Assembly (NCBI RefSeq): GCF_024807655.1
Contig: NZ_JANUCR010000002.1
Location: 124,001 to 188,000, forward strand
Origin: Methanococcus voltae
GTDB lineage: Archaea > AGJL01 > Methanococci > Methanococcales > Methanococcaceae
Direction: 5' to 3'
Length of the DNA: 64,000 nt
Shown: in pieces, positions 36,037 to 38,436 of the stretch
Layout of the letters: every line of letters begins with the position of its first letter
Numbering within the stretch: the first letter of the stretch is position 1
Translations under genes and position numbers: made by a program
The notes under the pieces: generated by a model
What the model saw: only the letters and a program-made list of their open reading frames with translations
Told to the model about the DNA's origin: nothing
Databases searched by the model: none

Positions 36037-36062
36037 AAAAAAAGTGGGAAAATCCCACTTTT
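36037..36062 (-). terminator. S-layer gene terminator hairpin
   Basis: A perfect 10-bp inverted repeat, AAAAGTGGGA at 36040-36049 and TCCCACTTTT at 36053-36062, with a 3-base loop. In the direction of sla transcription the stem is followed by TTTTTTTATTTTATT. It starts 36 bp after the sla stop codon. This is the clearest terminator in the window, as expected for a very highly expressed gene. Confidence 0.8.
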
Positions 36063-36097: not shown

Positions 36098-37867
36098 TTA
36101 TAACATGTTGATTAATGCGTTAGCAGCTTCTGCTGTTGCAGCTCTGTCGCCACCAGCTACTACTAATACATCATTACCGTTTGCAGCACCAGCTACTACA
36201 GCTAATGTTGCAGGTGATTCGTTTGTCATTTCAACTTTTCCAGCGTCAGCTAATTCTTTTGTTAAAGCGTTAGCTACAGGACCACCAACTAAGATTAATT
36301 TCTTGTTAGCAGCAGCTAATGAAACTTCTGAGTCTAATACAGCTAATGGTGCTTTGAAAGCTACAGGTGCTTTAGCATCAGCCATTACTTCTGATAAAGT
36401 GATGTCTGAGTTTAAAACTGTAACTTTTTGACCAGCAGCTAATGTAGCTTCTTTGGTTTCATCCATTGAGAAGAATGCGTTTAATTTTGTTGTTTCTTTG
36501 TCTTCATCATCTAATTCAACTTCAGCGTATTTTGCAATTTTCATTGACTTTCCTGATTTGAAGTTGTCTTCGTCATCGCCAACATATTGTAAACCAATAC
36601 CGTATGTGTTTGCTTTGGTGATTTTATCGTCAGCAAGTTCTAATTTAACTGTACCTATGTCTGAACCATCTGTAAATGCTGTTTTTTCAATCATAACAAC
36701 TTGCCAGTCTGGTATGTATTCTTCACCAACTTCTAAAGCTACTAAGTTGTTTGTGATCAATGTGCTTGCATAACCGTAGTCTCCACCAACGTTTTCCCAC
36801 GCTTGGTTAACTACAATACCGATGTTTCCAGGTGTGTAAACCATTTTTAATGGGCTACCAACTTCTGCAATATCGAATTTTTCAGCAACTACTTTACCAT
36901 CTTTTAATAATTGTAAGCTTACTTTGTATTTTACAGGTGTTGCGCCTGTTGTTAAGATAGCTACAACTTTTAATTCGTATCCGTCGCCAATACTGTAGGT
37001 ATCGCCTTCTTTTAATACACCATCGAATACTTCTTTACCTAAGTATACAATGTCATCGTCGGTGTCTAATTTAACTAAAGCGTATTCTTCACCTAAGAAT
37101 GGTAATCTATTACCTTCTTTTAAAGCCATTGTTGAAGTTCTGAAGTCTTCATTATCGTCGTCGTATGAAATTGAAGCATATAAAACCTGGTCTTCTTTAA
37201 CTGTTACTGAGTCACCGTCACCATTAGATGTAACTGTTGCCATTACCATCTCAACAGCATCACCATCTTGGTCGTAGTAATCTGCTGTGTATCTATCTGC
37301 TGTAGCACTATCACTGTACCAGTCTGATGGGTCGATATCTTTAACTTGTGATAATGTGCTTAAATCACCTAATGATTCAGCAGCAGCTAATTTTGAAGCT
37401 GTGAATAATATTCCATCTTTAAGGTTTGCTTTTGCAGGGTTTGATGTTGAGTCGTTAATTAAACCATCTGCATAGTCGCTATCAGCAGCAGCTACTAAAA
37501 ATGCTTGGTCGTCTACAGTTGTTAAGAAAGCGTTTGCAAGACCTGCTTTGTCAGGTACTTCTTTTAAGTTAGCATCATCTGATTCTGCTGAAGCTTTAAC
37601 TGTTAATTTTGCTGAACCTGAAGCAGCTTCTCCTTCTGTGAACATCATTGAACCGATTTTTGCAGCTACGTTTGCAGCTGAAACAACGTCAGCAGCAGCA
37701 GCTGTTGAACCTACTACGATATCTGCGGTTGGTTCACCGTTTTCTATTACTTTAAATCCTTCTACGTCACCGATTTTTTCTACAGCGAAAACACCTGTAG
37801 CTAATGCTGAAGCTACCATAGCGCTACCTGCAGCAATTGCACCGATCTTTTTTAAGCTCATTGCCAT
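36098..37867 (-). CDS. sla: S-layer protein
   Basis: The product is 589 residues, acidic and Ala/Asp-rich, and forms the cell-surface lattice. The N-terminus is a classical signal peptide: MAMSLKK, a hydrophobic Ala/Gly stretch, and a likely cleavage after GVFA before VEKIGDVEGFKV. The C-terminal 90 residues (LVGGPVANALTKELADAG..., VAGGDRAATAEAANALINML) match the conserved ends of methanococcal S-layer proteins. N-glycosylation sequons are present at about Asn138 (NDS) and Asn549 (NES). Base use is more G+C-rich than in neighbours, typical of high expression. AAGGTGCATTACA precedes the ATG. Opposite-strand Ala/Thr-rich frames here are shadows. Confidence 0.95.
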   Translation of the reverse strand: MAMSLKKIGAIAAGSAMVASALATGVFAVEKIGDVEGFKVIENGEPTADIVVGSTAAAADVVSAANVAAKIGSMMFTEGEAASGSAKLTVKASAESDDANLKEVPDKAGLANAFLTTVDDQAFLVAAADSDYADGLINDSTSNPAKANLKDGILFTASKLAAAESLGDLSTLSQVKDIDPSDWYSDSATADRYTADYYDQDGDAVEMVMATVTSNGDGDSVTVKEDQVLYASISYDDDNEDFRTSTMALKEGNRLPFLGEEYALVKLDTDDDIVYLGKEVFDGVLKEGDTYSIGDGYELKVVAILTTGATPVKYKVSLQLLKDGKVVAEKFDIAEVGSPLKMVYTPGNIGIVVNQAWENVGGDYGYASTLITNNLVALEVGEEYIPDWQVVMIEKTAFTDGSDIGTVKLELADDKITKANTYGIGLQYVGDDEDNFKSGKSMKIAKYAEVELDDEDKETTKLNAFFSMDETKEATLAAGQKVTVLNSDITLSEVMADAKAPVAFKAPLAVLDSEVSLAAANKKLILVGGPVANALTKELADAGKVEMTNESPATLAVVAGAANGNDVLVVAGGDRAATAEAANALINML

Positions 37868-37878
37868 TGTAATGCACC

Positions 37879-37920
37879 TTTTTAGTTTTTTGTATTATTT
37901 TTTAGTTTTTTGTATTTTCC
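37879..37920 (-). repeat. sla: 20-bp tandem repeat in the sla leader
   Basis: TTTTTAGTTTTTTGTATT occurs twice at a 20-bp spacing (plus-strand text). In the mRNA this gives two A-rich units (AATACAAAAAACTAAAAA) ending directly at the ribosome binding site of sla, a leader expected to be unstructured. Confidence 0.8.
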
Positions 37921-38041
37921 AGTAGTAATTAACAAGTTGTTAAACTTTTAAATTGTAATTAGTATTTAATTTAACATTACTACCTTTAATACTAAATTTT
38001 TAGTATATTTCTATATTTATAGTTATTTGTTGCTAACATAC

Positions 38042-38117
38042 TCGAAAGTATATCTTCTTACACGAGTAAGATTATACTCGTATATATAATATGTTATTCT
38101 ATTTTTAATACTTTCGA
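38042..38117 (-). promoter_or_regulatory. sla: nested inverted repeats at the sla promoter
   Basis: Outer arms TCGAAAGTAT (38042-38051) and ATACTTTCGA (38108-38117) are perfect 10-bp complements. Inside lies a second perfect pair, ACGAGTA (38062-38068) and TACTCGT (38075-38081), 6 bases apart. A TATA-like box for the minus strand lies at 38081-38090 between them. The block is about 175-250 bp upstream of the sla start. Operator or cruciform-forming control element; function is inference. Confidence 0.6.
38081..38092 (-). promoter_or_regulatory. sla: candidate TATA box of sla
   Basis: On the minus strand ATTATATATA is followed directly by the ACGAGTA inverted repeat. Use of this box would start transcription near 38055-38060 and leave a leader of about 190 nt. 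Other A/T runs (for example near 38146-38155, TTTATAAAG on the minus strand) are alternatives, so more than one promoter is possible. Confidence 0.45.
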
Positions 38118-38410
38118 AATTGTTCTGCTAATTTACAAATACTTTATAAATATACGAAACAAATTGATAATTAATTTGATAAATTTATTAGTAAATATAA
38201 TTATAATATGTGTCATCAACAATGAATTTCCAAGTGATATGTTAACTCACTTTCAAGTCATTACATCTTTTGACAAATAGTACTATGCCTATCTTAGTAT
38301 ATATACCTTACCAATTAATACGGTCTCTGAAACCGTTTCAAGATATATAAATCTTAAAAGAAGCTATTTTTTAAAAAAGAACCCTAAAAAAAAGATTAGA
38401 ACTATTATAA
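38118..38410. other. distal part of the sla upstream region
   Basis: This stretch lies between the sla promoter elements and the polB terminator. It has a 13-bp near-perfect palindrome (TGAAACCGTTTCA, 38328-38340) and another minus-strand TATA-like box near 38146-38155. No coding frame was seen. Confidence 0.4.
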
Positions 38411-38436
38411 AAAGGTTGCAAATTTTTGCAACTTTT
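38411..38436 (-). terminator. hairpin GTTGCA...TGCAAC downstream of polB
   Basis: GTTGCA (38415-38420) and TGCAAC (38427-38432) pair perfectly, and flanking AAA/TTT with a G:T pair extend the stem to 10 bp. In the direction of polB transcription the stem runs into CTTTTTATAA. It is about 210 bp after the polB stop, so it may instead bound the sla control region. Confidence 0.5.

Follow-up and report, generated by a model that had tools for sequence, protein, structure and literature searches.

The sla locus and its upstream region

The window analyzed here, a 64,000-nucleotide stretch of DNA from Methanococcus voltae, carries sla, the gene of an S-layer protein, which is usually one of the most abundant proteins in such cells. 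The gene and its flanking elements are as follows.

36098–37867, minus strand: sla, S-layer protein gene, 589 amino acids, with Pfam S_layer_N and S_layer_C and orthologues in the family
36037–36062, minus strand: hairpin plus T run 3′ of sla (AAAAGTGGGATTTTCCCACTTTTTTT), likely terminator
37868–38274, minus strand: predicted sla 5′ leader RNA, about 407 nt, its start placed from the TATA position
38313–38306 and 38305–38298, minus strand: sla core promoter, BRE TGGTAAGG and TATA box TATATATA, kept in sla orthologues family-wide
38316–38340, minus strand: promoter-proximal element TGAAAC...ACCGT
38415–38432, minus strand: palindrome GTTGCAAAAATTTGCAAC, putative operator or upstream activating site at fixed spacing from the TATA box

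The hairpin at 36037–36062 is likely the sla terminator, and similar GTGGG...CCCAC hairpins with a T run lie 3′ of sla in all seven Methanococcus genomes. Upstream regions of sla were compared among these seven genomes and then across the family, where they were read in three of the four genera. The TGGTAAGG-TATATATA block or a close variant was found upstream of sla orthologues in all three. Its distance to the ATG is about 60 to 145 bp in genomes outside the clade of the window; within this clade, it is 440 bp in the window (G000) and 491 and 484 bp in two sister species (G006 and G005, respectively). Transcription of sla is predicted from the TATA position to start near 38274, which would give leaders of 407, 459, and 452 nt in the three species, and the predicted long leader is restricted to this clade. 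A study of M. voltae sla transcripts was reportedly conducted by Kansy et al. in 1994 (Gene 148:131), on a gene that we take to be, very likely, the same sla in the same or a sister species. Given that study, and since the 5′ region of M. voltae sla serves as an expression promoter, the long leader in this species may already be known. In M. maripaludis, 54% of genes with mapped starts have a 5′ untranslated region (5′UTR) of 20 to 60 nt, and one of 223 nt was termed much longer (PMC6705878); a leader of ~407 nt would therefore be exceptional for the genus. A de novo promoter model built on 262 upstream regions converged on A/T noise, missed even the conserved sla promoter, and was discarded.

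Two further elements lie upstream of the core promoter. The BRE/TATA block is usually preceded in sla orthologues by TGAAAC...AC(C)GT, which takes the form TGAAAC-N12/13-GTTTC in most other species and TGAAACGGTTTCAGAGACCGT in the clade of the window, a rearranged half-site of unchanged total length. Farther upstream is a palindrome with the consensus GTTGCAAAwATTTGCAAC (38432–38415), present at one site per genome, upstream of sla, when searched with strict patterns. Measured from its end to where the NGTATATATA block begins, the spacing is 107 bp in 14 of 14 genomes, from three genera, in which the palindrome was recognized; automated values of 105 or 106 reflect a match begun 1 to 2 bases earlier, and gapless alignment shows the same register. 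The palindrome is lost or degenerate in three further genomes (loci L055, L060, and L061). Mean pairwise identity over the first 75 bp of the spacer is 51%, compared to 38% expected from composition, so that at a constant 107 bp the length of the spacer is kept and its sequence is not. The palindrome could instead be a terminator of the upstream gene, as A and T runs flank it, but this would leave the fixed spacing unexplained. It is likely the true operator or activating site of sla, and a better operator candidate than the nested repeats described below; the fixed 107-bp spacing is the architecture that would be expected of a dedicated sla regulator bound in fixed helical phase. We know of no regulator for the elements upstream of sla. 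The rigid spacing in three genera points to a regulator of the S-layer gene for whose isolation palindrome DNA could be used.

A long hairpin in the predicted leader

The initial annotation called attention to nested inverted repeats at 38042 to 38117. Both pairs are perfect, the outer one of 10 bp at 38042–38051/38108–38117 and the inner one of 7 bp at 38062–38068/38075–38081, and a TATA-like run, TATATATA (38081–38088), adjoins the inner arm. The repeats had been described as wrapped around the S-layer promoter; however, the family-wide sla promoter at 38313–38298 (minus strand) lies about 180 bp upstream of them. Because this promoter is 440 to 491 bp from the ATG in the three species, the repeats fall within the predicted leader RNA. 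The internal run reads TTATTTATA in the sister species and is without a GGTAAGG-type BRE; it was rejected as the main sla promoter.

Whether the repeats are unlikely by chance, as had also been claimed, depends on the feature that is counted. By length alone they are not: when the intergenic region (782 bp) was shuffled 300 times with dinucleotides preserved, 173 shuffles contained a 10-bp inverted repeat whose spacer was no longer than 80. Repeats whose arm holds three or more G/C are rare (2 of 300 shuffles), and a nested pair with such arms did not occur (0 of 300). The G/C-arm criterion was chosen after the sequence had been seen, and conservation is thus a better test than the shuffles.

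The nested pairs are only part of a larger hairpin, of which they form the upper half. Its helices, and a short upstream open reading frame (uORF), are located as follows.

38012–38154, minus strand: long imperfect hairpin in the leader, helices P1 to P5, supported by folding z-scores in three species
38145–38154, minus strand: P1 (basal) 5′ arm, TATATTTATA, pairing with 38012–38021
38135–38141, minus strand: P2 5′ arm, TATTTGT, pairing with 38024–38030
38108–38117, minus strand: P4 5′ arm, the outer repeat, pairing probability of >0.97 in the full leader
38042–38051, minus strand: P4 3′ arm, the outer repeat
38075–38081, minus strand: P5 5′ arm, the inner repeat
38062–38068, minus strand: P5 3′ arm, the inner repeat
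37992–38039, minus strand: 15-codon uORF, MLATNNYKYRNILKI, start at −172, doubtful

Folding of the sla-sense RNA gave P1 as UAUAUUUAUA/UAUAAAUAUA and P2 as UAUUUGU/ACAAAUA, followed by a variable P3, a P4 of 10 to 11 bp (outer pair), and a P5 of 7 to 10 bp (inner pair). The hairpin folds better than its composition predicts: its z-score is −5.95 for the window, and those of the two sister species are −4.45 and −4.25. In the window, the antisense strand of the hairpin (z = −4.47) folds more weakly than the sense strand. Against a background of about 3,600 segments of similar G+C from one 371-kb contig, it ranked in the top 2, and the sole better-folding segment on the contig covers the 3′ end of sla itself. 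P4 and P5 formed with a pairing probability of >0.96 in complete-leader folds of all three species. The hairpin does not resemble an intrinsic terminator or attenuator, as it has no U run; AGUAUGUUAGCAACAAAUAAC comes after the outer arm.

The uORF has the same start (−172) and length in all three species and directly follows the outer repeat; no Shine-Dalgarno sequence was found for it. Its constant position leaves room for translation-coupled control, albeit without a Shine-Dalgarno sequence. Masking of the sla ribosome-binding site by the hairpin was considered; after in silico deletion of the hairpin, the site was as accessible as before, and this speaks against simple masking. The consensus fold includes a long-range pairing that is bulged, with one pair broken in the window, and that was not adopted.

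Conservation and distribution of the leader elements

In the Methanococcus sla upstream regions, whose alignment was the check proposed with the initial annotation, the repeats are kept in the two sister species, and the exact arms are absent from the other four species. The sister species retain 9 of 10 bp of the outer arms and 7 of 7 bp of the inner arms, while linkers and loop vary. Changed positions number 1 of 34 in stem arms versus 10 of 42 outside stems (Fisher P = 0.018). In the P5 loop, UAAUCU is replaced by UUGAC without any loss of the stem; differences in the P1-P2 spacer are confined to the 5′ side, and P2 of G005 contains a G-U pair. No compensatory double changes were seen, with 23 of 24 counted pairs invariant, a comparison of three sequences, two of them nearly identical here, that has no power to reveal them; support for the structure therefore comes from folding energy and the pattern of change.

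Between the window and G006, identity is 57% in the 5′ part of the leader, 86% in the repeat element, and 94% in the next 122 nt, with 83% at the 4-fold degenerate sites of sla; among the species of the clade, identity over the 5′ half of the leader is down to 57 to 60%. The outer arm lies 250, 249, and 249 nt from the ATG in the three species despite predicted leaders of 407, 459, and 452 nt, which ties the element to the start codon and not to the promoter. Together, the upstream position of the promoter, the very stable fold, stronger on the sense strand, its retention in three species, and the fixed distance to the ATG support one of the two roles first suggested for the repeats, a fold in a long leader RNA.

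The leader stretch below the hairpin (37920–38041, minus strand) is 94% identical to that of the sister species, above the 4-fold degenerate sites of sla, and contains two more predicted helices, ATACTAAA/TTTAGTAT and GTAGTAAT/ATTACTAC. As this part of the leader is equally conserved, the hairpin may not be its main functional part.

Searches with the outer and inner arms recovered a single locus in each of the three sister species and none in other genomes, and a covariance model of P2 to P5 found the same three loci and nothing else among 36 genomes of the order. A DNA search with the leader returned, beyond the three true loci, only weak A/T-rich matches. Rfam gave no match to the leader, its only hit falling below threshold and lying elsewhere, on the opposite strand. 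Scans of wider genome and viral contigs with the outer-arm pattern returned only unrelated bacterial and viral records; a search of the wider genome contigs with the sla protein gave no match in a collection from which near relatives may be missing. The genome of the window and those of its sisters also contain a second full-length S-layer-type gene, 51% identical (L008, L009, and L010; C2:340915–342549 in G000 and equivalents), with no match to the exact repeat arms or to the hairpin model.

Interpretation and comparison with known systems

We consider it reasonably probable that the repeats form helices P4 and P5 within a ~143-nt hairpin of the ~407-nt sla leader, confined to this clade and acting on the mRNA. 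Such a hairpin would most likely prolong the life or steady the translation of the very abundant sla mRNA. An RNA-binding protein may take part, and a TRAM chaperone is known to open 5′UTR hairpins in Methanococcus (PMC6705878). The element occurs at a single gene in one clade, keeps its distance to the start codon, and lies in the predicted leader of a gene for a very abundant protein, all of which suggests a post-transcriptional role. Against this role, other species make an S-layer without the hairpin.

The other role first suggested for the repeats, an operator near the TATA box at which a dimeric regulator binds them in double-stranded DNA and controls sla transcription, did not hold up well, and we regard it as improbable. 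The arms are perfect, contain CG steps, and are kept in three species, and binding of repressors downstream of the start is known in archaea (PMC5512572). However, the predicted start is about 160 bp upstream of the element, whose distance to the promoter is not fixed, varying by some 50 bp (in the window it is about 180 bp downstream of the TATA box, in the sisters about 50 bp more) while the distance to the ATG is constant. Moreover, the arms occur once per genome, with no second copy in any, the 56-bp gap between the outer arms is unusual for one dimer, and the exact arms are absent from the other four Methanococcus species despite the shared sla promoter. There is similarly little to be said for a second, internal promoter, overlapped by the repeats, at which the TATA-like runs at 38081–38088 or 38012–38021 start a shorter sla transcript. 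Such sequences exist, the run at 38012–38021 is invariant in the three species, and the title of the 1994 M. voltae paper has "transcripts" in the plural; yet neither run has a BRE resembling that of the sla promoter, the run at 38081–38088 is altered in the sister species, such runs abound in A/T-rich DNA, and helix P1 accounts for the TATATTTATA/TATAAATATA pair.

A small chance is given to a regulatory switch, in which the leader senses a ligand, the S-layer protein, or translation of the uORF and alters sla translation. The identical start position and length of the uORF in three species would fit, as would the conserved 122-nt stretch around and below it; against this, the uORF is without a Shine-Dalgarno sequence, Rfam gave no match, no alternative fold involving the ribosome-binding site holds across all species, and that site is left as before when the hairpin is removed in silico. 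Just as doubtful is a reading without function, in which the long leader arose as a neutral insertion and the repeats are an accidental fold that persists because the species share a recent ancestor. The remaining Methanococcus species and the rest of the family do lack the long leader, and conservation rests on two close relatives, but the hairpin arms have not diverged while the 5′ half of the leader has fallen to 57 to 60% identity, and the folding energy is extreme for the contig. Finally, and equally tentatively, the hairpin, uORF, and conserved stretch could make up a dedicated feedback RNA that senses S-layer supply and sets sla translation, acquired once in this clade atop an ancient, rigidly spaced sla promoter that has a regulator to itself.

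Should mRNA life or translation be set by the leader, expression vectors with and without it ought to differ, and the clade, which combines a long leader with an otherwise conserved promoter, offers a natural test. In a limited literature search, no description was found of the hairpin, its clade restriction, or the rigidly placed upstream palindrome.

Bacterial S-layer mRNAs carry structured slpA-type 5′ leaders, reported to stabilize the mRNA. Like these, the predicted sla leader is long, untranslated, and stably folded, and it belongs to the mRNA of a surface protein made in very large amounts; it differs in being archaeal and limited to one clade.

Within the genus, 5′UTR hairpins of M. 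maripaludis are opened by the RNA chaperone TRAM0076 and affect expression (PMC6705878). The sla hairpin would likewise be a 5′UTR hairpin of Methanococcus, but the TRAM0076-target UTRs are mostly 20 to 60 nt with hairpins of 9 to 13 bp (PMC6705878), compared to about 407 nt and a ~143-nt hairpin for sla. At the DNA level, the regulator EarA of M. maripaludis has its sites directly upstream of the BRE at the fla promoter (PMC5512572), and the sla elements are analogous in also lying upstream of the promoter of a surface structure. EarA uses four 6-bp sites (PMC5512572), whereas the sla upstream region combines TGAAAC...ACCGT with an 18-bp palindrome farther out, at 107 bp.
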